Positions 3,303-55,490 of a stretch of 55,490 nucleotides of DNA are shown piece after piece (the first letter of the stretch is position 1; the number at the start of each line of letters is the position of its first letter). This stretch comes from Chloroflexi bacterium HGW-Chloroflexi-8 (GTDB taxonomy: Bacteria > Chloroflexota > Anaerolineae > Anaerolineales > Anaerolineaceae), in NCBI GenBank assembly GCA_002841995.1, contig PHBS01000004.1, forward strand, positions 1 through 55,490. The letters are read 5' to 3'. Both the position numbers and the translations under genes were made by a program. A model generated the notes under the pieces. It made no database searches and had not been told where the DNA came from. It saw only the letters and a list, made by a program, of their open reading frames with translations.

Positions 3303-3352
3303 CACCCACTGTAATCGATTCACTTTAGCTTCACCGCTAACTTATTTAGAGG

Positions 3353-35660: not shown

Positions 35661-35669
35661 TAAGAAACC

Positions 35670-37148: not shown

Positions 37149-37174
37149 AACATCACCTTTCTATTACCAATAAA

Positions 37175-38308: not shown

Positions 38309-39264
38309 ATTTGAATGTTTGCATTCTGAATTCTTTTTTGATTTATTATTTGTCTTTTTTGAATAACTTTTGGCACTAATCGAAAGACATCATACAATCC
38401 CAACAACACTCGCGGATAAAAAAAGAGCAAATAAAAGTTTCGTAATGAATCAACCAATAATATTAATGGCAAATACAGCCAGATATCTTTAAATCGGTCG
38501 TTTTTAATGATCAAAAGATATCGATTTTTTAAGGCTAACCTGGTTCCAACATTCCGCAAATCATCATTCGACTGTTTATGCAAAGTATCTCCCCAACCAC
38601 GCACATGGGTAGCAATTGCAGAAGGTACAAAAATACAGCGCCAACCTAAAATTTTAGCCCGCCAGGATATGTCTACATCTTCATAATAAGCAAAAAAATC
38701 CTCATCTAGAAATTCTCCATTAATCGAGATTTCTTCGACCATCTCTTTACGATATAAAGCTGCCGCACCACAAGCACCAAATACTTCTGTTTTAGCATCA
38801 TATTGCCCCTCATCCTTTTCGTTTTGCCCGCGATCATATGGCTTTCGCAAATAATTCAGAAACAATCCGGTTGAATCGATAAGAGATGGATTGTTTGCAC
38901 GCATCAATTTTGGCGCTGCACACCAAACCCTCTCATCCATATCTATCCACTTCACCATTTGATCGATAAAATCTGGTGCAGTTACCACATCCGGATTAAG
39001 TGACAAAACGAATTCGCCTTTTGCCAAAGTCATTCCATAATTAAACGCTTTCGAAAAACCCATATTTTCTTCGAATACCTTAATCTTAATATCTGGATGT
39101 TTTTCCTGGATCCAATCTACTGATCCATCGCTAGAAGCATTATCGATTACAAAAATCTCGATCGGTGAATAAGTTTGATTTTTAAGTGCTTCAAGGCAGC
39201 TTGGTAGAAATAATCTATGATTCCAATTTACTATAATTATGGAAACAAGCTTTTTTACGATCAT
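38293..39264 (-). CDS. GT2 family glycosyltransferase, rhamnosyltransferase-like
   Basis: 323 residues. 'VSIIIVNWNHRLFLPSCLEAL' start, 'VIDNASSDGSVDWI' for nucleotide binding, 'LSLNPDVVTAPDF' for the DxD-like site and 'FFAYYEDVDISWRAKILGW' for the ED-rich acceptor motif. This is the WbbL-like group of rhamnosyl- or similar transferases. A hydrophobic segment near the C-terminus ('LYLPLILLVDSLRNFYLLFF') likely touches the membrane. Gap of 13 bases to the ligase gene upstream. Confidence 0.9.
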   Translation of the reverse strand: MIVKKLVSIIIVNWNHRLFLPSCLEALKNQTYSPIEIFVIDNASSDGSVDWIQEKHPDIKIKVFEENMGFSKAFNYGMTLAKGEFVLSLNPDVVTAPDFIDQMVKWIDMDERVWCAAPKLMRANNPSLIDSTGLFLNYLRKPYDRGQNEKDEGQYDAKTEVFGACGAAALYRKEMVEEISINGEFLDEDFFAYYEDVDISWRAKILGWRCIFVPSAIATHVRGWGDTLHKQSNDDLRNVGTRLALKNRYLLIIKNDRFKDIWLYLPLILLVDSLRNFYLLFFYPRVLLGLYDVFRLVPKVIQKRQIINQKRIQNANIQMWFFQ

Positions 39265-39277: not shown

Positions 39278-41203
39278 TTAATTGGTTTGTGTCGTTTGTG
39301 TTTTTTTAGGCCGATTATTCAAATAAACCAAAATTCCAACTAACAGCCAAAAATAAGCGTTGACTTGCTTTACCTCCAGATTTTGATAGACAAGTCCATC
39401 AATAAAAACCACGGCAAAACTTGAAACAAGTGCTAAAATAAATTTTTTGTCGAAATTATTATCATTATCCTGGTATATACCAACCAACGATCGAACGATT
39501 TCGAGCCATAAATACAAATAAATTAGTAATCCCGGAATTCCCAACTCTACTATTGATTTTAGCAATTGACTCTCGGTTACAAAAGCAGATTCAGGAAATG
39601 TTCTGAGTGCAGCTGTTCCTGTAGTCCCCAAACCCATTCCCCATATTGGAGATTTTTTCCAGGCATCTAATCCCAGATTCCAGGCTGCAAGGCGGTCGCG
39701 ATTGGTCTCATCAGTCCCCCAATTAAAAATCGAACGAATGTGGGTAATAATCGGATTCGCACCTTGGTTGATATTATTGACATTCTGTAAATTTTCTATC
39801 TGACCAAGTTCCAACTCTCCCCATCCAGCCCAATCAAAATTGTTGTTGGCATTTGGTCCGGATTGAGTAATCAAATGCAAAAGCACCTTCTCGTTCTTCC
39901 ATTCAGAAAGATCAACTAAATAATTTCGCCATCTACGATCACTTGGGTTTGATTTGGGGTTAATATAACGCACAAAAACAAACTTATCTTTTGATGAATC
40001 ATTAACACCCTGCAAATATATCTTAAAAGTAACCCCATCACCATTTTCCGTTGACCACACCTCTTTAGCCATCGCAATTGAAAATTTTAGTACACTCGAC
40101 TGATTAATTTCTAACGGAAAGGTTATCTCATCTTGCACTTCTTCCGAAATTGGATGCATGTATAAAATGGATCTTGAATCATTTTGTTTCATAATCGGAT
40201 CCGGCAAATTCCAATTTTGGATCTCAAAATTGCTCTTATTTGGATCAAAATCAATCAACGGCTGGGCGCTTTGTAACACAATTTTTTTATACTCAGATGC
40301 GTTTAATTCAAAAGTTAATTTCTCTGTTTGCAACTGCGTAGAAGCACGATTCCCCAAAACAATGATTATTACAATCCCTAATAAAATTAAAGCACCAACA
40401 AACGAAAAAGTCCACATCCTGCCTTTTTCTCGCAAAAATAATATTGCGACGGGGACAAACGCAATCGCTAAGGCTACCCAAATACCGCGACTAAAAGTAA
40501 AGATGATACAAGTAAACATTAATATAGAAGCCAATCCATAAAATAATCTATGGAACATTTTCTTACTGGTAAACAAAAAAGCTATGGAAAAAGGCAATAT
40601 TAAAGCCAATGTATTCGCCAAAGTTGTTGGAGAATCCAGAACAAAATACACCCTACGAATATGAGTTCCATAAATATACATATCCGGGAACCCCTGTCGA
40701 ATTGTCAACTCGGTTGAAGGCCAAAGTGCAATATTAAAAATAAATTCAATTATTCCGCCCAGAGAAATAATTGTTCCTGCTGCAACGACCACAAATAGAT
40801 ATTTTTTTAATGTTGATGGATTATTTTCCAAAATTATAAATACTACATAAAATATTGGTAGATACATGATTGAGATATACAGTCCCCACCAACCAACCAC
40901 GCCTGAACCATCGATCAGGAATCGAAATAAAATAAACCCGAGATAAACACCAATCGCCAAACCTAATCGCTTTTTGGGCAGCACCATTCTTCCGGAAAAT
41001 ATCATGTATAAAATGGAAAGTAAAACTAATAAAGCAAGAAGAATCTCTTTCCAGTATGTTCCTATCGGGTCCGGGACCATCTTTTTTATAACCAGATGAA
41101 ATGGTATCAATGCCATAAAAACAAACAGACCGAAAATAAGGGTATTCTCCAAAATTCTTGAGGTTTGATCTCTGTTTTGAAGTTTACGGATTAACGATTT
41201 CAT
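39278..41203 (-). CDS. O-antigen ligase/polymerase-like protein with inserted DWAGWG module
   Basis: 641 residues. Helices fill 20-285, with a long outer loop and further helices near 555-630; 'TFSRGIWVALAIAF' and 'IWGMGLGTTG' recall Wzy_C/WaaL proteins. Residues about 296-467 form an extra module between two helices, in the place of the large outer loop: 'YMHP', 'EVWSTENGDGVTFKIYL', 'YINPKSNPSDRRW', 'DLSEW', 'TQSGPNANNNFDWAGWG'. The same module is seen at 44420, 45301 and 54821. Linking or polymerising lipid-bound repeats is the probable role; the module may hold the glycan. It overlaps the MurJ-like gene by four bases (ATGA). Confidence 0.85.
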   Translation of the reverse strand: MKSLIRKLQNRDQTSRILENTLIFGLFVFMALIPFHLVIKKMVPDPIGTYWKEILLALLVLLSILYMIFSGRMVLPKKRLGLAIGVYLGFILFRFLIDGSGVVGWWGLYISIMYLPIFYVVFIILENNPSTLKKYLFVVVAAGTIISLGGIIEFIFNIALWPSTELTIRQGFPDMYIYGTHIRRVYFVLDSPTTLANTLALILPFSIAFLFTSKKMFHRLFYGLASILMFTCIIFTFSRGIWVALAIAFVPVAILFLREKGRMWTFSFVGALILLGIVIIIVLGNRASTQLQTEKLTFELNASEYKKIVLQSAQPLIDFDPNKSNFEIQNWNLPDPIMKQNDSRSILYMHPISEEVQDEITFPLEINQSSVLKFSIAMAKEVWSTENGDGVTFKIYLQGVNDSSKDKFVFVRYINPKSNPSDRRWRNYLVDLSEWKNEKVLLHLITQSGPNANNNFDWAGWGELELGQIENLQNVNNINQGANPIITHIRSIFNWGTDETNRDRLAAWNLGLDAWKKSPIWGMGLGTTGTAALRTFPESAFVTESQLLKSIVELGIPGLLIYLYLWLEIVRSLVGIYQDNDNNFDKKFILALVSSFAVVFIDGLVYQNLEVKQVNAYFWLLVGILVYLNNRPKKTQTTQTN

Positions 41204-42744
41204 TGAGACATTCCTTTTAAAATTTTGTGTTTTAATAATTTATTGATGACCAACAAAACAAATAAGTAACTGATTACGAAAATTGATCCATACAATATTA
41301 GAAAAAATATATTTTGCTCCCTATTCCAAATCATTTCTCCCCAAAGGATAACTACCATCGCGAATACTGAAGCAAATATTACCGTGCCAAACTCTTTAAC
41401 ATCAACCAGATTAATTTTGAATGCAAATTGTCTCCTGGCGATTATTACTAATAAGACGAATTGCACTAACAAACCGAGAACAGCAGATAAAGCTATGCCA
41501 TTATACCCGATATTTTTTACTAAAATAAAGTTAGCTGCTAATCGGATGAAGGTTTGAACCAGATTAACATAAAATACAACTGACCCTTTTTGCCAGGCAT
41601 ATACAGTTCGCCAAAGCGGTTGGCAGAGAGAATCAACAAATACTGATATCGTATAATAAATTAGCGTATTTCCAACCAAATTAGTTGTATTACTACCAAA
41701 AGCACCATGTTCAAACAACAATTTTGTGACCGGTAAGCGAAATAAGATTAACCCAAAACTAACCGGTAGTGAAAACATAAAAACCAATTTGAGCGCCTTA
41801 ACCAGGTATTGATTCGCTTTTTCAAACAGTGACTCGCTTAACTTTTCGGAAATATCAGGAAAAATCACCATTGAGACGGCTAAACCACTCAGTTGCCCAA
41901 TTGTAAGCGCAAGATGATATGCAAAACTTAATATTGAAGCATTGCCTTCCCCGGTTGAGGTTGCCATCGCCCGATCAATAAAAAGAATTGTATGGTGAGT
42001 TAAATACCCGGCGGCTATCCAGATCGTTAATTTATAGACTTTAGAAAAGTTGCCATTGAAAGTAGATTCTTGCCAGTGATTAAAAATTCCAGATGGTAAG
42101 AGCTTTAAAAATAATGGTAATTGCAATAAAAAGGCTGCCAACGCCCCTAAAGTAACCCCCCATCCAGCTCGAACTAACGCATCCTTATCAGGAAACATGA
42201 ACAAACAAATAATAAAAACTACATTATATACAGCGGTCATTAATATCGGGCGAGCAAACTTTCGAAAAATTTGAAGAAAAGCACCCATTAAAGAAGCTAA
42301 TCCCATAAAGAAAATTCCTGGAAGCATCAAATTAAATAATTGACCTGCCTGAATGTGCTCAAATTTTTCAAAACCGGGGGAAAGCCATCTGATAAACACA
42401 GAAGAAGCAACAAAATTTATAAAAACCAATACCAAAATAATGATGACAAAAAAAATAAATATCTTCTTCGCAAAAGACCAGGCTGTTTCTTCACCAAATT
42501 TCTGCCGTAGACGAATAAAAAAAGGAATAATCACCGGCGTTAATATTATCGGTAAAGCAATAAATACAAACTCTGGTATGGCATAAGAAACCAGGAAGAT
42601 ATCAGTTGTTTTTCCTGCCCCTAACACATAGGCGATCGATGTCTGTCGTAAATAGCCTGTCAAAGTGCTGAAAATCAGACTAATAAAAACAACCAGATAA
42701 TTTTGATATGTCCGAAAGAAGTTTACGATTTTGTTGTAGTACAT
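41200..42744 (-). CDS. MurJ/MviN-type lipid-linked glycan flippase
   Basis: 514 residues with about 14 helices. The MviN/MurJ pattern is clear: 'FSTLTGYLRQTSIAYVLGAG' at the start, 'IRWLSPGF' in the first third, 'LTIGQLSGLAVSMVIFPDIS' and 'LFEHGAFG' in the middle. Unlike Wzx it carries the charged MurJ-like positions (R in 'YLRQ', 'LFRLPVTKLLFEHG'). It turns lipid-bound precursors to the outer side. A true MurJ for peptidoglycan is possible, but its place in a glycan operon suggests a polysaccharide-specific relative. A second flippase of the Wzx kind is at 50727. Confidence 0.85.
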   Translation of the reverse strand: MYYNKIVNFFRTYQNYLVVFISLIFSTLTGYLRQTSIAYVLGAGKTTDIFLVSYAIPEFVFIALPIILTPVIIPFFIRLRQKFGEETAWSFAKKIFIFFVIIILVLVFINFVASSVFIRWLSPGFEKFEHIQAGQLFNLMLPGIFFMGLASLMGAFLQIFRKFARPILMTAVYNVVFIICLFMFPDKDALVRAGWGVTLGALAAFLLQLPLFLKLLPSGIFNHWQESTFNGNFSKVYKLTIWIAAGYLTHHTILFIDRAMATSTGEGNASILSFAYHLALTIGQLSGLAVSMVIFPDISEKLSESLFEKANQYLVKALKLVFMFSLPVSFGLILFRLPVTKLLFEHGAFGSNTTNLVGNTLIYYTISVFVDSLCQPLWRTVYAWQKGSVVFYVNLVQTFIRLAANFILVKNIGYNGIALSAVLGLLVQFVLLVIIARRQFAFKINLVDVKEFGTVIFASVFAMVVILWGEMIWNREQNIFFLILYGSIFVISYLFVLLVINKLLKHKILKGMSQ

Positions 42745-42879
42745 AAGTTTAATTAATTTTTGAAGGATTAAATCTTTATAAAAGGGTTAATAAAACGGTT
42801 TCGATTAAACACATTATTACCTCAAAAATGTAATTGTAACACCCGGAATGAGCTATTCAGAAACTTTAGCTATCAAAAA

Positions 42880-44406
42880 TTACTTGGACTGAATGTTTTT
42901 AAAAAATACTGAAGTACGCTTCACAGTTTGAAAGTGGGGTTGATTTTCACCCCTCAATATCGGTGTGACGACAACAAGATAATTTCCAGCACGAGAAATC
43001 ACATTTTTTGGAATTACAACCATTTGCCTCCCAAAACTCCCAATATTAATTTCACTCGAAAATAAGATATCCATTCCCCCAACCATACGAGCATAAGCCA
43101 AATATGAAGATTTAGGAGAAAAATCTGCATTAACAAGCCCATAATGCGCTTCCATAGCCTGATTCTCACCGGTTTGGTTTATATAGTAATCACGTAGGCT
43201 CCACCAAAGCACTGTTTCGACTTTAGGAAATTGCACATACTTCTCAAACATAATTAACATGCTATCTGATTGACCCTTTTCATCCAACCACATCAAATTA
43301 TCAGGTTGTGGCGTCTCATTCAGATTATTTGATGATGGTACCGAGCCAAAACCGGTTTCAGTAACCCAAATTTTCTTTCCATCATCGCCAAAACGGTCCA
43401 TTACCCGGGAAATCGCATCGATCCGGTATTGCAACCAGTCATTAATTTCTTCTGGTGTTAAATTTACCGGCGGGTATATATGGATATTCAACGTATCAAA
43501 ATACGGTCTTGCCCCATCCCCTGCGTCTCCATCCCCATTTGGGTCATACAAACGCTCAACTGCAGTAACCAGATCCGCTTCACCCTGCCGCCAATACACA
43601 TCTGCTAAGCCTCCATTTAGAACATTGCAAGACGGATCTGCAGCATGAGCCCCTTCAAAACCAGCCCGCATCAGCTGAATATATGCTTCAAGTTCCCCAA
43701 TCCAAAAATTTCCAGGTAAAGGATCTTTACCTTGTGGCTGTACATTCGGTTCATTCCAAATCACCCAGTCACTGATTCCATATCCGTCTTTGACATAGGT
43801 TGATTGACCGAAAGGTTTATATCGATTTACGACTTGAAAAACAAAATCCCGGTATTGTTTTTCATCCACTGGCGGAATGCTCTTGTAATCCAGCGGTGCA
43901 AAGGAAGTCGGCGATGCCCATTGGGGTGTAAAGAGCAGCATCGGTACAATCGTTAAACCATATTGTTTTGCCAAACGGACTGCATCATCCGGACCACTCC
44001 AATCATATTTGCCCTGCTCTTTTTCAATTTTTCCCCATTCAAAATCCATACCAATATACCTTGCACCAGTTGCAGCCACAAGTGCCATTTCCGTTTCCCG
44101 ATCCTCCTTCGCTAACCACAGGGTTTGCACACCGGCTAACCCAAAAAAACCTTCTTTCCCTTTATATTGGGTTTGCTCTGCAGCCGGACCTAAAATCTTC
44201 AGCTCAATAAATTCATCATTAAACGAAGAGGTAGGTTCAAGCCACACAGTCCCTTCTTCACCCAAGATCAGCGAGATTTGATCAATATTCACCTGAGTAA
44301 TTTGTGATTGACCGGTTTTTTTAAATCGATGCCCCGCATCAGCCACGGTTAACAAAACTACCAACAGAACGATCATAACGAAAAAAATCCGTATTATATT
44401 TCGCAT
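42880..44406 (-). CDS. Membrane-anchored clan-A glycoside hydrolase, PslG/GH39-like
   Basis: 508 residues from the ATG at 44406; a GTG at 44418 is also possible, while longer frames run into the upstream gene. An N-terminal helix (about 5-25) is an anchor or signal. A TIM barrel follows (about 90-440): 'WGKIEKEQGKYDW' strand, acid/base Glu in 'WVIWNEPNVQP', nucleophile Glu in 'KIWVTETGFGSVP', 'LWWSLRDYY' near the end. The layout is like PslG and GH39 enzymes found in exopolysaccharide operons, where they cut polymer in the periplasm. It directly follows the gene at 44420 (13 bases). Confidence 0.85.
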   Translation of the reverse strand: MRNIIRIFFVMIVLLVVLLTVADAGHRFKKTGQSQITQVNIDQISLILGEEGTVWLEPTSSFNDEFIELKILGPAAEQTQYKGKEGFFGLAGVQTLWLAKEDRETEMALVAATGARYIGMDFEWGKIEKEQGKYDWSGPDDAVRLAKQYGLTIVPMLLFTPQWASPTSFAPLDYKSIPPVDEKQYRDFVFQVVNRYKPFGQSTYVKDGYGISDWVIWNEPNVQPQGKDPLPGNFWIGELEAYIQLMRAGFEGAHAADPSCNVLNGGLADVYWRQGEADLVTAVERLYDPNGDGDAGDGARPYFDTLNIHIYPPVNLTPEEINDWLQYRIDAISRVMDRFGDDGKKIWVTETGFGSVPSSNNLNETPQPDNLMWLDEKGQSDSMLIMFEKYVQFPKVETVLWWSLRDYYINQTGENQAMEAHYGLVNADFSPKSSYLAYARMVGGMDILFSSEINIGSFGRQMVVIPKNVISRAGNYLVVVTPILRGENQPHFQTVKRTSVFFKNIQSK

Positions 44407-44419
44407 CCTTTTGCTCACA

Positions 44420-45181
44420 TTACCTGGTCCAAGCAGGCTGCTCAATGCGTGGATTTGCCCAACCGGACCAATCAAATCGTGTATCTCCCGCTGGACCACT
44501 GTTAACAGAAAAAATTACTCGCACTAATTGCCCTGAAAAACCGGATAAATCAACCATAACTGGTATCCAGGTTTGATCCTGTTGGTGATGCTTTGGGTCC
44601 ACATAACGGCTGTATAACAAATGTATTCCCGAATCATTTTCCAGATAAATCAAAAAAGTAACGCCGTCTCCTTCCGAAGACCATGATTCGGGTGCCAATG
44701 CCAGGTCACTCACCAAAACCGAGTCTGATGGAATCTTGATTGGATATACAAGCGTTGTTGTTCCACTGGTTGAAGGGTGAACAAACAACACTTGCTTTTG
44801 AATACCGTCAATCTCCCAGTTTTCAACTTTCACTAAGGTCTCATCCACCAAACGCATGGTAACCGCCCGATTCGCAACAAAATCATAACTCATTTTTTGC
44901 GGAAACAAATTCGGGTGCAGCACATATATCAGTCCAGCCAAATAAATTGCCAAACCCAAAAGTTGGGCGATAAATTTCAATATCTTTCGGAATTCAAAAT
45001 TTTGATTATTATTCCCCAGAGTACGGCTTACCAATTCCAACCACAACATGACAACCATGGCAGTTAGTAACCCCGCAGCCACAGCCAGGCTTGAATCCGG
45101 ACCAATCACCCATCGAACCCCAAAAAATGATATTAGAAAAGCAACACCAAGTTTTGTTAACCATTTCTTTTTTTCATTCAT
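44420..45181 (-). CDS. Small membrane protein with DWAGWG module
   Basis: 253 residues. Helices at about 10-30, 32-50 and 68-90 are followed by an outer module (about 97-250) with 'YDFVANRAV', 'LFVHPSTS', 'ESWSSEGDGVTFLIYL', 'YVDPKHHQQDQTW', 'DLSGFSG', 'NSGPAGDTRFDWSGWANP'. All conserved positions of the module in the ligase at 39278 and the giant protein at 45301 are present, with Ser for Ala in DWSGW. No catalytic domain is attached, so this protein may be a stand-alone presenter or partner of the polymerases. It sits upstream of the hydrolase gene in the same operon. Confidence 0.75.
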   Translation of the reverse strand: MNEKKKWLTKLGVAFLISFFGVRWVIGPDSSLAVAAGLLTAMVVMLWLELVSRTLGNNNQNFEFRKILKFIAQLLGLAIYLAGLIYVLHPNLFPQKMSYDFVANRAVTMRLVDETLVKVENWEIDGIQKQVLFVHPSTSGTTTLVYPIKIPSDSVLVSDLALAPESWSSEGDGVTFLIYLENDSGIHLLYSRYVDPKHHQQDQTWIPVMVDLSGFSGQLVRVIFSVNSGPAGDTRFDWSGWANPRIEQPAWTR

Positions 45182-45231
45182 AATTCAAACCTATCATCAA
45201 AATTATTTATTGAAAAAGATAAAGGATCTCT

Positions 45232-45268
45232 AAAAAAAGCAGGCATCCGAATTAAGAATACCTGCTTT
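45232..45268 (-). terminator. Rho-independent terminator after the giant ligase gene
   Basis: AAAGCAGG and CCTGCTTT pair (8 bp, 17-base loop); on the - strand seven T follow. It lies about 30 bases after the stop codon of the gene at 45301, which is therefore in a different unit from 45181-41200. Confidence 0.8.
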
Positions 45269-45300
45269 TGATCAATTGTTCCAGTATGAACACAACTAGA

Positions 45301-48300
45301 TCAAGGTACGCTACTTGAATGATCATCAATAATTATAGCGGGATCTCCCCAACCAGCCCAATCAAAACGGTCGTCGTTGTTAGGGCCAGATGTGGTCGTA
45401 AACTTCAATTTAATGCCTTTCCCTTGATATGCACTTAAATTAATTTTTTCCAATCGCCAATCACGATCTTCAATATTTTGCTTTGGGTCCATATATGTTG
45501 AAAAGATTTCTTGGCTGTTAATTCCATCTTCAAGAATAATAACGAAATTTACGCCATCACCGGCCTGATTCCAGACCTCTGGTGATAATCCTGTCCAAAA
45601 ATTTAAATACAGCTTTTCCCCTGTTTTAAGGACGGGTAAATTAATCTCATATTCAGAAAATGAATCCGGATGCATAAAAATAGTAGTTTTTCGATCTCCG
45701 TTAATTTGAAAATAAGTTGCCTTTATAAAGCCCTTATATACGGTATCTGACAAATTTGCCTTTGCTAAATTAGAAACAAAATCATAAACGGTATCTCGAA
45801 AAATGTTGCCTTCCACTTTTTGAGCCAATGCAAAATAAGGAACCGCCTCAGAGAAATTTCCTGATTTTAAATAATAATTACCCATCGCAAGTTGAGCTTC
45901 GCCCCAACCAGGTGTTCGTGCCACAGCCTCCTGATAAGCTGCCAAGGCATCAGAATAATTTTCTTTCGATTCATACAATCTTCCTAAAGCGAGTAAAGGT
46001 AACGATTCATATGGATCTAAATTTGCTGCTAAAAAGAATTCTTTTTCAGCATCTTCAGTCATATTTAATAAAAGGTAAGTTTCACCAAGAAAATAATGTG
46101 GTGCACTTTCGTTCTTTCGCGACTCAGTTGCCAAAAAATAATTTTCTACCGCTTTCTCTGGTTGGTTACGCAATCGGGCAATATGCCCAAGCATAATTTT
46201 ATGAATAAAATCCGAACCAACCGAATCAATATGAATTTCTATTTGTTTTTCATTCTCACCAGATTTTGCAATACAAGTAGCAACAAACCACAAACGCGAA
46301 TCATATGGACGGACCCAATTTTTGACCAGCGCATCATAAGCTTTCCAACAATTACCGGTTTTTTCTATAGAAGTCCCATCTATTGAATCATCATTCGCCA
46401 AAGCCAAAAAATCCTCCGGGGTTGCCCTGATTTTTGATATCCATTCTAATGCCTGTCTGGCTTTTTCAGATTCACCCAAAGCAGAGTATACCTGTTGCCA
46501 TGCATCTAAAATATCAACATTAAACGACATCAAGTGGAACGAATCTGATGAAGCAATCGCTGTCGTCAAAGAAAGTGTCTCCGCCGCTTTATCAGGTTCT
46601 TGGAGGTTTAGTTGCACAAGGGATAATAATCTTTTCGAATCGATGTTTTTTGGACTGACATCTACCGCTTTTTCCAGCCAGAGTTGTGCTTCATCAAAAC
46701 GATTCTGTTCAGAATAAATAAGCGCCATACCACGATAGCCATAAGCACTATTTGGGCGAACGGTTTGATAATTTAAATATGCATCTTCTGCACGGTCATA
46801 TAATCCGCTCAAACGTGCCGCTTCTGCCCCGGCTGCCAAAATCAAATGAGCCTCAGGATCGTTTTCGTTTTTTCCAGCCAGATAGTGAGTATTAAGAACA
46901 TCAAACACACTATCAATATTTAAATAATCTCCACCATTAATTGATTGATTGAACTGCCTCGCAGTAATATTCGATTTTTCCAAATGAGACATCAAGCGAA
47001 TATTCAAATCGGTAGCCAAGGATTCACGGTAATAAACCGGATCTAGGACGACAGCGAATGTTCCATCGGCTAGCTGTATTTTTAACCAATACAATTCTCC
47101 GGCTAAATCCGGGTGATATTCGAATGATTTTGCAAATAATTCATATGCTTCGGACCATCTTCCTTGGTTTGCTCGTAACAACCCCAGATTCGCATGAAGT
47201 CCTGGCGTCCACCCTTCCAGTGGGTCGTTAGCAATTGCCTCTTCAAAATATGCGTTGGTAGATTCCAAATCACCCTGTAACCACGCCAGCCATCCCGCCT
47301 GGGTCAAATAAGGTGAATATCCACGCTTAAGGGATATTGCCTTTTCAATGTTTTCTGTGGCTTGTTTAGTTTGCCCAATTTCAAGATCAACTTTAGACAG
47401 CATCCATCGATAATGAGCCGAAAGTGGATTCACTACGGAAGCTATTTGAAAATTCTTAGCTGCATCCTGCCAGCGGTGTTCCTGAAAAGCCAAAAATCCA
47501 GAACTATATTGATTGCTGGCGAGCGCTGACAAGATACACACAAATATCACTAATAACGATATAACCCGTAAAAAAATCTTTTTTTCAAAAAAATGCAGGG
47601 TTTTGAAAATCACAGGTTGTTCGCTGTTTGAAAAACATGAAATCCCTAATAAGAGCCCGATTATTGCCCAAATTGGAAAACTAAAAAATGGAGGTGTCTC
47701 ACGGGTGACATCCAGCATGCCCCAGGCTAACTCTCCCGCAATTCCTGCCAAACAGGCTGCTGCTAAAACTCGCTGTTGAGGATTCCCCTGCTTCCAGGTT
47801 TTCATACCAATCATAACTATTGTGAACAACATACCCAACAGACCAATCAACCCAACCAGACCAGTGAATGCTGTGATCTCCAAAAAGATATTATGCCCAT
47901 GAAGTTTAAGCAGGCCAGTATGGAATCGGATCACATAAAGCGGGTCATCCAAAATATCTTGTGATTCGCTTACCAACTTTGCATTTTCCGAAAATTTTGT
48001 ATAAAGGTACTCATTGTCTGGCCCACCGCCTAACAAAGGATAATTTCGAATGGCATTGATAGCCCCAGTCCAGTGAGCGAATCTCCCATTAAAAGAGTAA
48101 ACATTAATTGTTGTTGCAACGCGAATACTTATAAACAACATTCCCGCAACGATAATAATAATGGACGCAATCAGTGTTATGCGAGTAATAGGCGTTGAAG
48201 TAATTCGTATCCACGTAGTTTTGATTTGCTTCCAAAACAAAAGATTGGCAAAAACAAAAACAGCAACAAGGAACGCAAAAAAACCTTCAAATGAACGTGA

Positions 48301-49326
48301 AACAAAAATAATAAAAAGAATCAAAATTTCAAGTAGAATCAATCCCCATTTTTGAAGTTGTCTCAATCGCCCATTGGATTGTTCAATAAATAAGAGAGCC
48401 ATCCCAAATGGAGCAGTAATAAGTAACGAACGTGCTATTAAATTCGCCCCCCCCATTTCGGTCGGATGCAAACGATACGATAATGCCATTCCATAACCAA
48501 AAGCCAAAGAAATATTAAATATTTTAATCAACGCCAAAAGAATTGGTAATCCAGCTCCAAAAGCCAGAATGATCCAGGATATCGCTTTCCATTCAGACCA
48601 GGTTTGCACAAAATGTGCTGTGCAGGCTGCCAAACAGATCATTAATATCATGGCGAGCACATAAGAGATGCTTTGTCCAGGCACAGGCGAAACCAACGTA
48701 GTCAATACCAGTTCAGCAACAAAAAAAACAACCCACTTCCAATAATTAACTTCATTAAGAGCTACACGCAATGCATCTTTCTTTTGACTTAATAAATAAA
48801 TTATTAAAAAACCAGTCAAAACAACATTAATCGACCCTACTTCTGGAACCGCAGAAACCCGAAAAAAAATGACTGAGCTGTAAAAACCTGCAGCAGCTAA
48901 AGCTGCACCACCCGATGCCCATTTTTCATTGGTGAGCGAGAACCATGTAAGTGCGAAAGAAAAGCCACAACCGATCACTAGATATATCAACATCAAAGCA
49001 GGCAACGAGTGTAATGAAGCCAATCCGGATGGTAGTTTGTTTGCAGTGATGACCTGGGTAATAGCTGTAGCTACAAGCGCAACCAATGTTAATGTCGTTG
49101 GGATCTGATTGAAGATTTTGTAAACTGAGTGCCCACTCTTCCAAACAAGAAAGAAGGGCACCAGAGTGCTGATAATTACGACAGAAAAGACCGCATAAGC
49201 GTACGGAGCAAGCAACGAAGAAAATGAAGATATGACCGATATAACAATTAACAGGATTACGATTATCCCTTTATATCCTGTTTCTTTGCTAGGGAATTTT
49301 CCCTCCATATAATCTGTTTCCTTCAA
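45301..49326 (-). CDS. Giant O-antigen ligase/polymerase-TPR-DWAGWG protein
   Basis: 1341 residues. Residues 20-620 hold about 14 helices with the Wzy_C/WaaL outer-loop traits 'HPTEMGGANLIARSL' and 'YPLLGGGPDNEYL', 'KLHGHNIFLEITAFTGLVG'. Residues about 640-1170 are tetratricopeptide repeats ('FQIASVVNPLSAHYRWMLS', 'LEKAVDVSPKNIDSKRLL', 'AANLDPYESLPLLALGRLYE'), on the outer side. The end (about 1178-1341) is the recurrent module: 'FMHPDSF', 'EVWNQAGDGVNFVIIL', 'YMDPKQNIEDRDW', 'NLSAYQG', 'TTSGPNNDDRFDWAGWGDP'. Ligase-TPR fusions are known (PF04932 plus TPR), but the added module is unusual. Probable role: linking or polymerising the surface glycan. Confidence 0.85.
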   Translation of the reverse strand: MKETDYMEGKFPSKETGYKGIIVILLIVISVISSFSSLLAPYAYAVFSVVIISTLVPFFLVWKSGHSVYKIFNQIPTTLTLVALVATAITQVITANKLPSGLASLHSLPALMLIYLVIGCGFSFALTWFSLTNEKWASGGAALAAAGFYSSVIFFRVSAVPEVGSINVVLTGFLIIYLLSQKKDALRVALNEVNYWKWVVFFVAELVLTTLVSPVPGQSISYVLAMILMICLAACTAHFVQTWSEWKAISWIILAFGAGLPILLALIKIFNISLAFGYGMALSYRLHPTEMGGANLIARSLLITAPFGMALLFIEQSNGRLRQLQKWGLILLEILILFIIFVSRSFEGFFAFLVAVFVFANLLFWKQIKTTWIRITSTPITRITLIASIIIIVAGMLFISIRVATTINVYSFNGRFAHWTGAINAIRNYPLLGGGPDNEYLYTKFSENAKLVSESQDILDDPLYVIRFHTGLLKLHGHNIFLEITAFTGLVGLIGLLGMLFTIVMIGMKTWKQGNPQQRVLAAACLAGIAGELAWGMLDVTRETPPFFSFPIWAIIGLLLGISCFSNSEQPVIFKTLHFFEKKIFLRVISLLVIFVCILSALASNQYSSGFLAFQEHRWQDAAKNFQIASVVNPLSAHYRWMLSKVDLEIGQTKQATENIEKAISLKRGYSPYLTQAGWLAWLQGDLESTNAYFEEAIANDPLEGWTPGLHANLGLLRANQGRWSEAYELFAKSFEYHPDLAGELYWLKIQLADGTFAVVLDPVYYRESLATDLNIRLMSHLEKSNITARQFNQSINGGDYLNIDSVFDVLNTHYLAGKNENDPEAHLILAAGAEAARLSGLYDRAEDAYLNYQTVRPNSAYGYRGMALIYSEQNRFDEAQLWLEKAVDVSPKNIDSKRLLSLVQLNLQEPDKAAETLSLTTAIASSDSFHLMSFNVDILDAWQQVYSALGESEKARQALEWISKIRATPEDFLALANDDSIDGTSIEKTGNCWKAYDALVKNWVRPYDSRLWFVATCIAKSGENEKQIEIHIDSVGSDFIHKIMLGHIARLRNQPEKAVENYFLATESRKNESAPHYFLGETYLLLNMTEDAEKEFFLAANLDPYESLPLLALGRLYESKENYSDALAAYQEAVARTPGWGEAQLAMGNYYLKSGNFSEAVPYFALAQKVEGNIFRDTVYDFVSNLAKANLSDTVYKGFIKATYFQINGDRKTTIFMHPDSFSEYEINLPVLKTGEKLYLNFWTGLSPEVWNQAGDGVNFVIILEDGINSQEIFSTYMDPKQNIEDRDWRLEKINLSAYQGKGIKLKFTTTSGPNNDDRFDWAGWGDPAIIIDDHSSSVP

Positions 49327-49484
49327 TTAGCAATTATTTTTGATAATGTTTCATCAATGAAAACCTGTCGACACAAAATGCACAAGAAAAAAATTTAACC
49401 AATCTGGTATCCAATCTTACGCTTAACACAAACATTTCTATCCTGGAAGCAGACCAACGAGTAATCCAAGATTAATACTTGGTC

Positions 49485-50525
49485 TCAAGTTTTTTGCATT
49501 AAGTGTCGGCTGTAAACATCCAGTAATTTTTTAGCAACAATACGCGTATCGAAATATTCCATTATCCACTTTCTAGCCTTTTCACCAATTTTTTGTCCTT
49601 CTACAGGATTATTGAGCAAAAAAAGCATTTGATCTCGAGCTTCTTCTGGAGTATTGGCAATTAGGACTGGAGGAAATTCCAGATACATATTAGCATATTT
49701 AAAATTACAGATCACTGGTTTTCCACATGCCATTCCTTCCAGTTCTGAAACAGTCAAAATTCCAGTTCCAATCTGTCCCAAAATAAAAGTTGAATCCTGA
49801 ATTGTTGAAATCATTTTTTTATGTGGAGTTCTCGACAATAAGACCAATCTTGAATCACCTTCGTATTTATTAAGAAATTCCTTTACTTCTTCCATTGCAT
49901 TTCCATAATTGAACATTTTTACCTTGATTTTTGGGTACTCATTCCAAACCAACTCAATTGATTTTAAAACCTCTCCAATACCTTTGAAACGATCTATTTT
50001 ATTAATGTTAAACAAAACGGGAGTGTCCTGGAATTCAAAATCGGTTCGCGGAATAAATTGTTCAGTATCAATTGGATTGGGAAAGAAAATGGCATCCGGA
50101 CGAATCTTTTCGACCAATGGCTTTAAATCAGGAGTGGTATAAAAAACAGATTCCGCCTTTTCAATACCACTTCGAATGATCTTTCCTAAAATCGGCCAAT
50201 GAATATGAATCCGAACATCGGTGCCATGAATATGCAGGAAAAACGGAAATCCAAAAAAAAGTGGTAAGTAAGCATGCGTTCCGTAATGAATATGAATTAA
50301 ATTAATCTTTTCATTCTTTATGTATTGTTTAAACCGAAATATTTCAATAACTCGAAGAATGGTCGAAATTACGTACTGCAGAATTTTTGGAAATTTCTCA
50401 TTTTTATAATTCAATAACCGGTAAAGTTTTGCGTTTACACCGATATCGCAAAGACCAGAGACCAGATTGGCACCAACGGACGCGACATCATTTACATGGA
50501 CAATTCTTAGCTCTCTCAATTCCAT
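49485..50525 (-). CDS. GT4 family glycosyltransferase
   Basis: 346 residues of the GT-B fold: 'RIVHVNDVASVGANLVSGL' at the start, 'NLIHIHYGTHAYLPLFF' in the acceptor domain, 'VLFNINKIDRFKGIGEVLKSI' and the donor site 'ILTVSELEGMACGKPVIC' with the E-x7-E-like glutamates. The 'HIHGTDVRIHIHWP' segment is typical of transferases for unusual sugars. It is separated by about 160 bases from the giant protein gene and by 200 bases from the flippase gene, so it may have its own promoter. Confidence 0.88.
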   Translation of the reverse strand: MELRELRIVHVNDVASVGANLVSGLCDIGVNAKLYRLLNYKNEKFPKILQYVISTILRVIEIFRFKQYIKNEKINLIHIHYGTHAYLPLFFGFPFFLHIHGTDVRIHIHWPILGKIIRSGIEKAESVFYTTPDLKPLVEKIRPDAIFFPNPIDTEQFIPRTDFEFQDTPVLFNINKIDRFKGIGEVLKSIELVWNEYPKIKVKMFNYGNAMEEVKEFLNKYEGDSRLVLLSRTPHKKMISTIQDSTFILGQIGTGILTVSELEGMACGKPVICNFKYANMYLEFPPVLIANTPEEARDQMLFLLNNPVEGQKIGEKARKWIMEYFDTRIVAKKLLDVYSRHLMQKT

Positions 50526-50726
50526 AGTAGGCCTTCACCTTAATAATCAATCCATCAAAAACCACAAATTTTCAAGCAACACCTGAGAAATAATTGCCCG
50601 GTCAAATTTTTTTACTTTATCATTCAGATGAAGTGAAGTAGATCAAATTTTCAAAATGATTAAGTTGTGCCTTAATTATAACTTGGGGCATTTGTGAGAA
50701 CATTCTTAATAACCGAATAGAAACAA

Positions 50727-52256
50727 TTATCGCTTAAATCTGCGGGGAATAATGGTAAGGAGAAATTTCTTATCCTCCAAATTTAAGATAAACAAATAGA
50801 TAATAATCACGCATACAATACCGGTAATTGAGCCTATACTTATCATTTCAAGCCAATTCCGTATAGCATACTGCGTTGTGATGAACCAGGATATTGATCC
50901 TACTAAAGTTGGTACCAAGATCCCAGGAAAAAGTGCTTTTAAGTATATTTTCCAAGAATAGTTTTGAATATAAGCAGTATATATTGATGTAAACAAAGAA
51001 TAAATCAGAGTCAGAACAATCGCGCCTGCTGCAGCAATCCCATAAGCTCCCATATTAAGAAATTTTATAAAAAATATTGCTAAAAGTATATTTACAACTC
51101 CCATTACTAATGTTACCAATCCTGGGATCTTTACTTTATTTAATGTTATCTGAATTCCAATTAGTGGTAAAACTGCAAGATTAATTGGTAAGTGGAAGAC
51201 AATGATTGCCAATAACAATCCAAGACGTCCAAAATCCGCTCCTAACCACAATTCAAGAAATGGCTTTCCAAATCCACAAATCAAACCAACAAGAAAACCG
51301 ATCGCAATTCCCATTAATCTGACAGCCAGTAAAGATAAACTAGTGATGCTTTTCAAATCATTCACCGCATATTTGGCTAACACTATCGGTGTTAAAACAC
51401 CTGCAACGGTTCCTGCAACTCCCCGAAGTAATGCAGAAAATTGTATTAATGTACCATATTCACCAGCAACTTTTGGCCCTAACATAATATTAGCAACGAC
51501 AAGATCAATATATAGAATTAACAAAGTCCCGATTTGGCTAATAACCATCCATCCACCCATATTGGTGAGTTCGCGAATTCTTGATAGATCAAATTTTCTG
51601 GGGGAAATTTTTAGTTCTGGCGTCAATCGTTTCCAAATATATATATCTCCAAATAATCCAAACAACGATGAAATAAAAATTCCTAAACCAACAATCCAGA
51701 TACTAGGAACGATTAATCTAAATAAAATAACAACGACTAGAACCCTAATGATGTTTGTTGGAATAATAACCGCATTCCGCAAGTCAAATCTGCTTTTTGC
51801 CCATGTCGAAATCGAGAAACTACTTCCTATCGTTGTTACAAAAAATGAAGACATAACAAAGAAAAACAAAATCTGAGTAGCGATTTCCTGGCCTGATGGA
51901 ATATCAAAAATTTTTGGAACAAAAAAAACAAACCCTATTAAGAAAGGTATTGAAATTAATGAAATAATTAATATTCCAAATAAAGCAGTATTAAACGTTT
52001 TATTTGCACTGTCAATAGAATTTTTTTGAAGGTCAATTGTTAAATATCTGCCAACTGCTCCATTTAATGCCATTGTTATCAAACTCATGTAAATCGTTAC
52101 AGAATATGCAAGGGGGTAAAGCCCATAAGATTCAACGCCAAGATGAATAATCAGATAAGGTGTAAGCCATAATCCAATAAGTAGGTTTATTCCATATGCA
52201 ATAACGTTCGTGGATACATTTATGCCAAATTGACTTTGGTTTTTAGAATTTAACAA
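50727..52256 (-). CDS. Wzx-like polysaccharide flippase
   Basis: 509 residues with 12-14 helices, the PST/MATE fold of O-unit flippases. Start 'QFGINVSTNVIAYGINLLIGLWLTPYLIIHLGVESYGLYPLAYS' zone (the 'G.E.YG' turn after helix 1-2), then 'GAVGRYLTIDLQK' typical of this group, and 'GPKVAGEYGTLIQFSALLRG' in the middle. It carries the lipid-linked repeat across the inner membrane. Together with the MurJ-like protein it makes two flippases in one cluster. AT-rich like the genes around it. Confidence 0.88.
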   Translation of the reverse strand: MLNSKNQSQFGINVSTNVIAYGINLLIGLWLTPYLIIHLGVESYGLYPLAYSVTIYMSLITMALNGAVGRYLTIDLQKNSIDSANKTFNTALFGILIISLISIPFLIGFVFFVPKIFDIPSGQEIATQILFFFVMSSFFVTTIGSSFSISTWAKSRFDLRNAVIIPTNIIRVLVVVILFRLIVPSIWIVGLGIFISSLFGLFGDIYIWKRLTPELKISPRKFDLSRIRELTNMGGWMVISQIGTLLILYIDLVVANIMLGPKVAGEYGTLIQFSALLRGVAGTVAGVLTPIVLAKYAVNDLKSITSLSLLAVRLMGIAIGFLVGLICGFGKPFLELWLGADFGRLGLLLAIIVFHLPINLAVLPLIGIQITLNKVKIPGLVTLVMGVVNILLAIFFIKFLNMGAYGIAAAGAIVLTLIYSLFTSIYTAYIQNYSWKIYLKALFPGILVPTLVGSISWFITTQYAIRNWLEMISIGSITGIVCVIIIYLFILNLEDKKFLLTIIPRRFKR

Positions 52257-52545
52257 TTTTATTTTGCCTAAATTAATGAATTAATGCAGTTTACCAACAT
52301 TATAAAAGATTATCATAAAAAGATATTTATATCCACATATGTGTTTATTAAATGAGTAGCTAAAACAAAATGTTGTGTTTAACAGAGAATAATTTTTGAA
52401 TAAATTGCACCTAAATAAAAAATCCAATTATCATTTAGCCTCCAATTGATAACTAGAGTAAACAATATATTTAAAAGTAAAAAAGATACCTTTCCGCCAC
52501 AATTATTAATACAAGATATATTAAAAAATTTTTCGTATAAAAATG
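52257..52545. other. AT-rich intergenic stretch
   Basis: 290 bases, very AT-rich, no gene seen; it lies between the Wzx-like gene and the truncated glycosyltransferase and probably contains the promoter of the Wzx-like gene. Confidence 0.5.
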
Positions 52546-53517
52546 CTAGAGTGAAGAATTCAGAGTTTTATATAGAAGAAGTGAAGTATTTTCTCCTCTA
52601 AAAATAGAGGAAGAATTAATAGCATTTTGACCTAATTCTTTACATAAGGAAGAATTGTTTAGTTTCCGTAACACGTGGGAGAGATTTTCAATTGAAGGAT
52701 CAGATGAAACTAAACCACAACTGTTATTGATTATAAACTTAGCCAAGAAATAATTCTCTGGACAATGAGCTAAGATAGGTCTACCTGACGATAAATATTC
52801 CATCATTTTTGTAGGAAAAATAGTTGACAACTCATCTTTATGGATGGTGGATTCATCTGGCCAATCTAATGCCACAATTAAAATTTGTTGCTTGTTTAAA
52901 TGTGATAAAAATTCTGAGACTTCTGGGATGAATTTTATTTGCTTTTTGCTTTTAACAATATTTTTTCTTAGTAAGTAATAATAATTAGTTATTGTCGAAA
53001 TATTAAAATCGTAACCTTCATTAGCTAATGCCTGTGAGGCTCTTCTCAAAGAATTAAAATTTATACCGTAAATACTACCACAATAAAATGCTTGACGATT
53101 ATTTATTTCCTCAAAACTAGTGTTTTGTGCACCATTATAAATATGTCTTAATATTATAGAAGAGGTTTTATATTTTTCATTAAAGAGATCTCGCAGTCCA
53201 TCACTAATAACAAAAATATTCTTTGTTTTTCGAAATATTTGTTGTTGTAATTCCAAAGCAGAATTTTCTAAATATGAATTAAATAATCCTTCATAAAGAG
53301 CATCATGAAAGTATATTGAGTTGGGAATTCCTAATTGATTGCTGACATCAAAACTAGACTTTAAATGGAAAAATTCAGGATAAATCGAAAGTATTTGCGA
53401 TGGTTTGACGTGGTTTATTATTTTTTTTAACCGATTGTTTGCAAGTGGTATTTGTACTTTTTGAAAAAATTGATTAATCTTAACTGGGAGCTTTAGATCT
53501 GAGTAAATTGAATACAA
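52546..53517 (-). CDS. Glycosyltransferase, GT-B type, lacking its N-terminus by frameshift
   Basis: 324 codons; the only start in this frame is a TTG at 53517 without a clear ribosome site. The protein holds the middle and C-terminal half of a GT-B glycosyltransferase ('NKQQILIVALDWPDE', 'STIFPTKMMEYLSSGRPILAH' as donor site). The missing N-terminal part is found just upstream in another frame (53557-53684). Adding a single A to the eight-A run at 53549-53556 joins both into one protein of about 380 residues. Either the run is a sequencing error, a phase-variable tract, or the gene is broken. Confidence 0.75.
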   Translation of the reverse strand: MYSIYSDLKLPVKINQFFQKVQIPLANNRLKKIINHVKPSQILSIYPEFFHLKSSFDVSNQLGIPNSIYFHDALYEGLFNSYLENSALELQQQIFRKTKNIFVISDGLRDLFNEKYKTSSIILRHIYNGAQNTSFEEINNRQAFYCGSIYGINFNSLRRASQALANEGYDFNISTITNYYYLLRKNIVKSKKQIKFIPEVSEFLSHLNKQQILIVALDWPDESTIHKDELSTIFPTKMMEYLSSGRPILAHCPENYFLAKFIINNSCGLVSSDPSIENLSHVLRKLNNSSLCKELGQNAINSSSIFRGENTSLLLYKTLNSSL

Positions 53518-53520
53518 ATT

Positions 53521-53684
53521 TAAATTTTGATTACCTTTGAATTTGTTATTTTTTTTGTTACAACATGGTAACTTTGTGGATCAAAATTTCTTAATAAATT
53601 ACCCATTACTACACTCGATCCACCTCGAGCTGGAGGAAAATTAGCCGAAATTATTAATAGAGTCCCATTTTGTAATATTCTCAT
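53521..53684 (-). pseudogene. N-terminal fragment of the frameshifted glycosyltransferase
   Basis: From the ATG at 53684 the - strand reads 'MRILQNGTLLIISANFPP', then 'ARGGSSVVMGNLLRNFDPQS' and 'YHVVTKK', the classic glycine-rich first loop of GT4 enzymes, before running to a stop after the A8 tract at 53549-53556. With one extra A the frame continues 'NNKFKGNQNLNLYSIYSDLK' into the gene at 52546. I read both as one gene. Confidence 0.7.
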
Positions 53685-54243
53685 TTGTGCTTCAGGGAAA
53701 AATCATCCTTCTCTAATACTCTCTAAAGGTTTAACAGCATTAAAATCATTTTCTTCCATCGATTTAATTACTACCGACCATGCACTAATAATTACATTCA
53801 ACCCTATTTTTATTCCCTATAATACCATTAAACGTGTACCAATCAATGCCAATCAACACGTAATTTTTAATGATCATTTATTATGATAATGTTCGACCCT
53901 ATATTTATTAGTCTTGCATTCCTGGATATAGAATAAAATTCGTTATCACGAGTACAATTGCCTATAGCAATTAAACCAATAATGGCAATTTCAATTCTTT
54001 CTCCGAAAAAATAAAATCAATGAAAAACGAATACAAGCTCTGATCAACCTCTCCCTTTGGGGGTAATTTTACGACTAATAAAGTATAGAGCAAGATTTTG
54101 GTTATTAAGATTAATTGTTCTGTTGATTACCACTCGTCATGATTAATACACTACAAATTTAAAAATTAGTTCGTATCAAGACAGCATCCACATATTTTAT
54201 ATACAAACTAGACTAATATCGCCATTAGGAGATGGACTTGAAG
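53685..54243. other. Stretch with possible coding relic
   Basis: On the - strand 53696-53800 reads 'NVIISAWSVVIKSMEEND' and 'FNAVKPLESIREG' before a stop, which resembles a decayed glycosyltransferase C-terminus, in a frame closed by stops on both sides. The rest shows no gene. Low confidence for the relic itself. Confidence 0.3.
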
Positions 54244-54260
54244 GTCGAATGAAATTCGAC
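54244..54260. repeat. End hairpin of the IS200/IS605-like element
   Basis: GTCGAAT-GAA-ATTCGAC, perfect 7-bp stem with a 3-base loop, just after the tnpA relic on the - strand. IS200/IS605 elements have such imperfect or perfect hairpins at their ends instead of inverted repeats. Confidence 0.55.
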
Positions 54261-54299
54261 TAAAGCCATACTTCTTCACTGAAGTTTTGATCCCAGCAT

Positions 54300-54640
54300 A
54301 GAAGACTTTTTGTCCTTGTTTTTCGATATACTCTGTGATAATCACATCCGTCAAATTCCCTTTGCTTGACGCAAAATACCATCGCGTCCATAGTTGCTGC
54401 CCCTCAATACACATTCTTCAACTTCCCAAACTATTGCAAAATTCAGCCGACTACTTAGTCCCTTCAACCTATGCACCAGTTCACTTACCTCCATGTTTGG
54501 CGGTATTGATACTAACGGAAGCCAATTATCTTTCGCCACATGTCCTATTTCTATGTAAAGTCCAAACTCGAAAACGTCTGTTGGATCAAGTCTCGGATTC
54601 TTAATCCGTTTACCCCGTGCAATAATAGCCTTCGGTACTT
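54300..54640 (-). pseudogene. tnpA: Decayed IS200/IS605 family transposase TnpA
   Basis: Two overlapping - strand frames (about 54640-54351 and 54414-54310) together resemble TnpA. The first gives 'LPLVSIPPNMEVSELVHRLK' and 'GLSSRLNF', matching the region behind the active site ('HLLISIPPK.SVSE.VKRLKG.SSR'). The second gives 'LWTRWYFASSKGNLTDVIIT' and 'EYIEKQ', matching the tyrosine-helix end. The HUH motif (usually 'DHVHLL') is replaced by 'GHVAKDNWLPLV', and a frameshift lies near 54380. The element, about 510 bases between its hairpins, is dead. No tnpB is present. Confidence 0.75.
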
Positions 54641-54734
54641 GGTTATCCTTATGATGCTATATTTTAGGTTGTACACCGAGTGTATTGTTTTACTATATCT
54701 TATACCTTTATTATATCGTCTGGTGGTAAAACTG

Positions 54735-54750
54735 CCTGCCTAAAGGCAGG
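54735..54750. repeat. End hairpin of the IS200/IS605-like element
   Basis: CCTGCC-TAAA-GGCAGG, perfect 6-bp stem, followed by GGATTTTTGACCC, typical for an end of IS200/IS605 elements. It lies upstream of the tnpA relic. Confidence 0.55.
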
Positions 54751-54820
54751 GATTTTTGACCCTATTTACAGGCAATAAGTCAGAATCCTTGTCATTAATA
54801 CAGGTTGGACGCTTAGGATA

Positions 54821-55490
54821 TTAACCATCATCGACTTCTCGTAAATCATTTTTCACTTCAATTTTAAGGAGTGGCTCACCCCATCCTGCCCAATCAAAAC
54901 GATTGTTGTGGTTAGGGCCAGATTTAGTTTCAAAAACTAATTTGACATGTTCACCGCTATAAGTACTTAAATCAAGTTTGAAATCAAACCAATTTTTATC
55001 AGCATTTATGTTTTTTGGGTCAATATATTGATCAAAAATCCTAAATTGCTGAGCATTTTTTGTTATCGAAACAATGAATTCAACGCCATCACCTTTGCCT
55101 GGCTCCCAAACAGCAGAATCAAGAGCGATTGAAAAATCAAGATAGCTGTTTTGTGGAACATTAATAAAATAAACCAACTGAGAATCTGGATGTTGAAAGA
55201 GAACCCCACGTGCTTCTCTTTTAATTATAAAAGATGTCCGTTTTACAAAATTAAGTTGACCCAAAACAATTGTTGCTTCATCCAAGTTTTCCAAAAAATC
55301 ATATGTAATATCTGGAGATTTTGGTCTTGTGTAGTTTGGGCCATCATTTACATATTCAATGAGAACAGAAGGATCAACTGGAATTAACCGCTGGAGTTCA
55401 TTAATATAACGTTCTTTGTTCGGGAAAAATTCTTCCAATGTCTTTAGAAGATTTATTCTTTCAAAGAAATCCTCAGTACCTCTAATTTTC
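54821..55490 (-). CDS. C-terminal part of a protein with DWAGWG module (5' partial)
   Basis: The frame is open to the right edge of the window; the codons before the TTG at 55438 read 'IRGTEDFFERINLLKT', so the gene starts outside. The last 180 residues are the recurrent module: 'YDFLENL', 'FQHPDSQ', 'AVWEPGKGDGVEFIVSI', 'YIDPKNINADKNW', 'DLSTYSG', 'TKSGPNHNNRFDWAGWGEP'. The part before it ('NKERYINELQRLIPVDPSVL') does not show TPR or helices. By analogy the missing N-terminal part may be another membrane ligase or glycosyltransferase. It is the fourth copy of the module in the cluster. Confidence 0.75.
   Translation of the reverse strand, partial: KIRGTEDFFERINLLKTLEEFFPNKERYINELQRLIPVDPSVLIEYVNDGPNYTRPKSPDITYDFLENLDEATIVLGQLNFVKRTSFIIKREARGVLFQHPDSQLVYFINVPQNSYLDFSIALDSAVWEPGKGDGVEFIVSITKNAQQFRIFDQYIDPKNINADKNWFDFKLDLSTYSGEHVKLVFETKSGPNHNNRFDWAGWGEPLLKIEVKNDLREVDDG

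Follow-up and report, generated by a model that had tools for sequence, protein, structure and literature searches.

A candidate carbohydrate-binding-module-like domain on envelope-glycan membrane proteins of Chloroflexota

The window analyzed here, a stretch of 55,490 nucleotides, is the whole contig PHBS01000004.1 of Chloroflexi bacterium HGW-Chloroflexi-8 (GCA_002841995.1) and encodes, within a glycan-assembly cluster, four proteins that share a module of about 160 residues. The module appears to be an undescribed beta-sandwich resembling carbohydrate-binding modules (CBMs), borne by envelope-glycan membrane proteins of Chloroflexota, mostly on the outer face, where it would hold the glycan near the enzymes. 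We put the probability of this reading at roughly 0.56. The module is a real family, CBM-like in its predicted fold, of glycan-assembly and other membrane proteins of this phylum.

As originally predicted, the four open reading frames (ORFs) that carry the module are of different build, and all lie on the minus strand (Table 1); the window being the complete contig, the protein at its edge cannot be extended. In BLASTP comparisons, the four copies are 33–40% identical to one another (E 4e-24 to 4e-36), a likeness far beyond chance, so that they represent one homologous module. The proposed order of conserved positions, running from an HP pair through GDGV-x-F to a DWAGW-like end, is backed by 27 invariant columns in the four-row alignment. 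A search of the source genome (3.95 Mb, 93% complete) with a profile of the four copies finds only these copies at E<=0.01.

An AlphaFold model of the giant's copy, built from eight sequences (the four window copies and two each from L008 and L009, the L-numbers being labels of loci from other genomes), shows a beta-sandwich of ten strands with a mean predicted local distance difference test score (pLDDT) of 88.8 and a predicted TM-score (pTM) of 0.86. A Foldseek search of the PDB started with this model yields 207 matches at E<=0.001, headed by a porphyran-binding CBM (8xmz, E 1.3e-6). The best 50 of the 207 include CBM61 (2xom, target TM-score 0.62), CBM22, CBM4, CBM6 and CBM27, many Eph ligand-binding domains, and MAM-bearing chains (astacin LAST-MAM, meprin beta). 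Given that CBMs, Eph ligand-binding domains and MAM domains are the best matches of the modeled beta-sandwich, the jelly-roll guess of the original prediction holds for the predicted structure. Judged by the model, the module shares the broad fold of these proteins and has no close relative among them. Among viral models, the named matches are largely phage tail proteins and lyases, and also include a CenC-like, an F5/8 type C and a galactose-binding protein. A low-confidence model of the whole ligase shows nine strands and a short helix in the same order in its own module copy.

Over the module, every Pfam and NCBIfam model stays below its cut-off, both in the window proteins and in 48 module copies, in agreement with the initial impression that the module belongs to no named family. 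Sub-threshold matches to choice-of-anchor J (NF038128; 4 of the 48 modules, best E 0.0056) and to InhA-like MAM (PF20773; 3 of 48, best E 0.0074) cover the second half of the module. A sequence search of the PDB with a single copy gives one match, unrelated, at E 1.5, and profile searches reach Immune inhibitor A at E 0.0089 (4-row profile) and 0.015 (48-row profile). At the sensitivity of these searches, homology to the EmbC-type CBM is absent: no arabinosyltransferase Pfam model matches the 48 modules at E<=0.1, and no such PDB entry is hit at E<=10. In the literature searched, no description of this module was found. The domain family looks new, as do its host range and its place inside Wzy_C, the CBM-like kind itself being already known.

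In the 641-residue ligase-like protein, the module lies inside the Wzy_C domain. Two window hosts score above the Pfam cut-off for Wzy_C (31.7 bits), this protein with 59.0 bits and the giant, a ligase fused to tetratricopeptide repeats (TPRs), with 48.2 bits. In the former, positions 1-60 of the Wzy_C profile align with residues 224-281 and positions 64-149 with residues 473-563, with the module in between; scanned alone, the N-terminal part reaches 30.5 bits, just under the cut-off. This host thus differs from the Wzy_C/O-antigen ligase family (PF04932) by about 190 residues between the two parts, module included. In the hosts of L042, L043 and L135, Wzy_C likewise matches in two stretches, the second one behind the module; the L135 host (2831-6001) is a 1057-residue fusion of a glycosyltransferase family 2 (GT2) domain and a Wzy_C ligase with the module between its two Wzy_C stretches. 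Nine transmembrane helices are predicted before the module of the 641-residue ligase and two after it, and the positive-inside count (20 versus 13) agrees with an inner N-terminus and an outer loop. In known WaaL and Wzy enzymes, the catalytic site is borne on an extracytoplasmic loop. The insert would lie at the start of this presumed catalytic loop, so that the module would hold the polymer at the site of transfer. The original prediction placed all copies on the outer face; by hydropathy and charge counts, the copies of the ligase, the small 253-residue protein and the giant fit this placement, and the claim is thus retained for these three.

The host proteins of other genomes are diverse. 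At E<=0.001, the 47 class-level hosts include 16 with TPR_14 (the commonest TPR model), 8 with PMT_2, 5 with Wzy_C and 2 with YfhO, and the 24 phylum-level hosts include 5 with PTPS_related, 3 with PMT_2, 2 with YfhO and one each with Wzy_C and GT2; the L046 host matches both DUF2142 and PMT_2. Part of the hosts thus match Wzy_C, PMT_2, YfhO or GT2 and are putatively carbohydrate-active; others are TPR proteins or unlabelled. A GT-C fold may be common to PMT_2, DUF2142, YfhO and PTPS_related, and there may then be few truly unrelated scaffolds. The 86 copies at E<=1e-4, fragments and weak matches among them, lie in 85 host ORFs, which fall, once the modules are masked, into 25 groups without mutual BLASTP matches at E<=1e-5. 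The largest are a YfhO-containing group (17 ORFs), a group of TPR proteins with one transmembrane helix (16 ORFs; all five scanned singly match TPR), an unlabelled type mostly with 5-9 helices (11 ORFs) and a group with PMT_2 in the singly scanned member (7 ORFs). Comparison of the unlabelled host types with solved structures gave nothing useful, and the 641-residue ligase has no match there. Outside the module, transmembrane helices are predicted in 72 of the 85 host ORFs, and six or more in 47. One 932-residue membrane protein (L009, 326-3121) ends in two tandem copies; in L131 (3581-5097) and L137 (6380-7661), the module match is distributed between two overlapping frames, as would be seen in a split gene.

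In a tree of 82 module copies, in which 26 forks are open, the four window copies do not group together. The giant's module pairs with that of the L008 giant and the small protein's with L041 (both supported), the ligase module groups with the ligases of L008, L043 and L042 (the sets of three and four are supported), and no partner is supported for the edge copy. The tree gives no support to recent duplication within the genome as the source of the window copies. Among the 68 rows whose host cluster has at least two members, the tree needs 8 changes of host type, the minimum for 9 types, compared with at least 36 changes (mean 43.8) in 500 shuffles; when the YfhO cluster is split in two (ten types, 69 rows), 9 changes are counted. 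The L135 module stands away from the other four ligase modules, a placement with weak support; given this and the open forks, the perfect count may depend in part on poorly supported branching. Genome changes number 22 over 33 rows from 14 genomes with several copies (minimum 13), compared with at least 23 (mean 26.6) in 500 shuffles. On the tree, the modules are thus ordered far more by the type of their host protein than by genome. Accordingly, of the idea of a common tag of glycan-assembly proteins, one part stands, in that many hosts match membrane families of glycan assembly; a tag of one cluster is not supported, the window copies being ungrouped and the modules following host type more than genome.

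The module was found in 57 of 396 genomes of a class sample and, with a 48-row profile, in 43 of 400 genomes of a phylum sample, the source genome counted in both and nine copies being listed in one phylum-sample genome; in these searches, no more than 8 or 9 candidates were scored in any one genome, and the genomes are incomplete. As the family occurs across the phylum, it characterizes more than this one cluster. Among closer relatives, none of 7 same-genus genomes and 3 of 60 relatives overall have it (one of the three at E 9e-4). The 641-residue ligase has no match at E<=1e-10 in these 60 relatives, so that the glycan cluster looks accessory. A pattern scan of species genomes returned 49 stretches, 2 of them confirmed relatives, both in Anaerolineales (Chloroflexota) metagenome-assembled genomes. 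No module was found in a plasmid collection by tblastn with one copy, which is not a proper test beyond the phylum.

A glycan-holding role near outer-face enzymes is suggested by analogy with two systems. According to one study (PMC3044687), the C-terminal CBM of the GT-C arabinosyltransferase EmbC, likewise a beta-sandwich on a multi-spanning glycan enzyme and with mostly CBMs as its DALI neighbors, binds acceptor analogues, and Trp substitutions reduce acceptor binding and lipoarabinomannan extension. EmbC differs in hosts and phylum, the present module occurring also inside Wzy_C and on TPR proteins. According to PMC11127046, the C-terminal CBM of the GT-C protein ORF12 (GT136) binds its O-polysaccharide, and ORF12 and the O-antigen transporter Wzt, which act in assembly or export, each use a CBM to bind their own polysaccharide; those are immunoglobulin-like CBMs on single enzymes, whereas the module is one family on several host types. 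In Bacillus subtilis, glycosylation of lipoteichoic acid requires YfhO (PMC5836110), which fits the YfhO-type hosts. In another setting, Lipocone proteins carry lectin domains, NPCBM-like ones among them, on their extracellular side (PMC12419801), and PMC12220298 deals with TPR domains of synthase systems. By analogy with EmbC and ORF12, the module would bind the acceptor or the lengthening chain near the active site, and at the C-terminus of the giant and behind the helices of the small protein, it would tether the polymer to other members of the same machine. Each module appears tuned to the step of its host, given that modules track host type more closely than genome. In a wider version, the module would be an ancient reader of glycans in Chloroflexota envelope assembly, a single sugar-binding domain distributed over Wzy_C ligases, GT-C-like families and TPR proteins. 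Each descendant would have specialized along with its host for the same polymer class at a different step, and in the ligase the domain would be built into the catalytic-domain loop, uniting chain recognition and transfer; this version seems doubtful at present.

Several observations weigh against a glycan-holding module. The structural matches are middling (query TM-scores 0.41-0.55 in the best 50 of the 207) and include the protein-binding Eph and MAM domains, so that the fold is no proof of sugar binding. The whole-ligase model (two sequences, pLDDT 40.2) is too poor to show where the module lies with respect to the active site. Conservation is higher in loops at one presumed end of the sandwich (1.97 versus 1.39 bits in the 75 core copies), but a one-ended conserved site is not significant, with 26 of 134 circular shifts equally good (30 of 134 for all 82 copies). 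The modules also cluster slightly by genome, which slightly lowers confidence. The GT136 CBM was dispensable under the conditions tested (PMC11127046). No transmembrane helix is predicted in 13 of the 85 host ORFs, 3 of which are cut by the end of a stretch and 7 of which form a distant soluble branch (hhalign probability 99.0, E 5.2e-18 against the module). The proteins of this branch (L083 5173-5826 and relatives in L059, L084, L085, L086, L087 and L089) have about 200-220 residues and combine a conserved N-terminal part with the distant module relative. Finally, glycan genes are only modestly enriched beside hosts. From 180 neighbors found at 56 loci (neighbors of more than 700 residues and loci shorter than 9 kb excluded), 92 were scanned, the nearest on each side at 51 loci, with the five soluble-branch loci left out; these include 6 GT1, 3 Polysacc_synt, 2 Bac_transf, 2 GT2 and 1 epimerase (among the best 25 of 90 families), i.e., about 14 of 92 if all are different proteins. 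Among the controls, 92 of 126 proteins from 20 chosen stretches in genomes with the module, at least 2 of 92 match, both GT1 (among the best 25 of 149 families, a range in which single-member families mostly do not appear). This modest enrichment and the 13 hosts without predicted helices further weaken the common-tag claim.

Three other explanations have to be weighed. The module could be a docking or oligomerization domain, each copy binding another or a common partner and thereby joining the ligase, the TPR giant and the small protein. That four different proteins of one contig carry it, that 16 of the 43 positive phylum-sample genomes list two or more copies, and that Eph and MAM domains are among the structural matches would suit such a role, as would the TPRs of 16 of the 47 class-level hosts, TPRs usually being protein-binding. 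Yet only one copy is listed in 49 of the 57 class-sample and 27 of the 43 phylum-sample genomes (within the limits of candidates scored and genome completeness given above), where a module partner would be missing, and three of the ungrouped window copies join the same host type in other bacteria, the edge copy having no supported partner; docking is therefore unlikely. A rigid sandwich without a specific ligand, which would shape the extracytoplasmic loop or set the distance between TPRs and the membrane, is consistent with the insertion in the ligase loop and with the conservation pattern, much of the strongest conservation being hydrophobic or Gly/Pro and hence possibly structural. Such a lid or spacer is nevertheless improbable: the domain also occurs at C-termini, in tandem and behind a few helices, and in the 75 core copies polar loop residues are kept across hosts (His47 in 85%, Asp85 and Asp150 in 95% each, model numbering).

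The module could also be a divergent member of NPCBM (NPCBM/NEW2, PF08305), a known lectin-like family with a discoidin-like fold according to PMC8195603. In favor, the kinship of the soluble branch with the module is clear, and 6 of the 10 rows of the alignment that holds this branch match NPCBM at E<=0.1 (best 1.9e-4); besides, the NPCBM domain of L090 has a similar GDGV-x-F and DWA-x-W-x-DP pattern. Comparison of profiles with 9 NPCBM domains from the class is weak for the module itself (probability 31.5, E 5e-4) and drops to a probability of 4.9 for the soluble branch. Moreover, none of the 48 modules exceeds the NPCBM cut-off, only 2 match at E<=0.1 (best 0.01), and a search of the source genome with this family gives no match at E<=1e-5. 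The sequence resemblance is distant, short of membership, and outright inclusion in NPCBM is the least probable of these explanations, although deep kinship is plausible. The class NPCBM domains of L145-L152 lie in long open frames of 833-1094 residues.

Table 1. Module copies, their hosts and neighboring genes in the window
Feature	Position	Strand	Basis or remark
Ligase-like host of copy 1	39278..41203	-	641 residues; O-antigen-ligase-like membrane protein, Pfam Wzy_C 6e-16
Module copy 1, inside the Wzy_C domain	39791..40267	-	four-copy profile
Host of copy 2	44420..45181	-	253 residues; relative in L041 (292 residues), 54% identity over 192 residues
Module copy 2, behind three predicted transmembrane helices	44438..44896	-	four-copy profile
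Ligase-TPR giant, host of copy 3	45301..49326	-	1341 residues; Wzy_C (334-496), TPRs, module
Module copy 3, C-terminus of the giant; used for AlphaFold	45316..45801	-	four-copy profile
Incomplete host of copy 4, truncated at the contig edge	54821..55489	-	222 residues visible
Module copy 4, in the edge protein	54848..55318	-	four-copy profile
Other glycoside-hydrolase-like gene	32169-33947		GH42 above cut-off
GT2/Bac_transf fusion, radical SAM-B12 protein, GT4-like gene, GT2 gene	34056..39264	-	family matches for three of four
Radical SAM protein with B12-binding domain	35670-37148	-	family match
GT4-like ORF	37175-38308	-	named from its sequence
MurJ-like flippase adjoining the ligase	41200..42744	-	Pfam MurJ 4e-60
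Glycoside-hydrolase-like protein	42880..44499	-	matches GH10 and GH42, both under the cut-offs
GT4-like transferase and Polysacc_synt flippase	49485..52256	-	family matches

The genes around the module hosts are partly conserved in other genomes. The order glycoside-hydrolase-like protein, MurJ, module ligase, GT2, GT4-like and radical SAM-B12 is kept in L042 and L043, the radical SAM-B12 protein having the highest identity among the shared genes (59% in L042, 65% in L043). Next in L042 comes a protein matching the Bac_transf portion of the window fusion, and L043 keeps the order as far as the radical SAM gene. MurJ adjoins the module ligase in L008 as well as in these two loci. The glycoside-hydrolase-like protein next to MurJ in the window has a relative, 53% identical over 424 residues, beside MurJ and the module ligase in L043, whereas that of L042 matches the other window gene of this kind. 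The giant has a relative in L008 (57% identity over 1333 residues), where giant, MurJ and ligase lie side by side, such that gene order is kept in part. Two glycoside-hydrolase-like proteins are thus encoded in one assembly cluster, and the ORF of the one next to MurJ (42880-44499), as listed, overlaps the gene of the 253-residue module protein. For the Polysacc_synt flippase (50727-52256), the best matches in the plasmid collection are from Methanosarcina (36% identity over the full length), and exchange with archaea is possible judging by this similarity.

To our knowledge, the envelope glycans of Chloroflexota have been little studied. Many of the hosts are labelled only as membrane proteins, and a recurring domain provides a handle to find such proteins across the phylum; as an isolated soluble domain of 160 residues, it would lend itself to easy ligand testing. 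A recognition domain inside Wzy_C would bear on the choice of chain and acceptor by polymerases and ligases.

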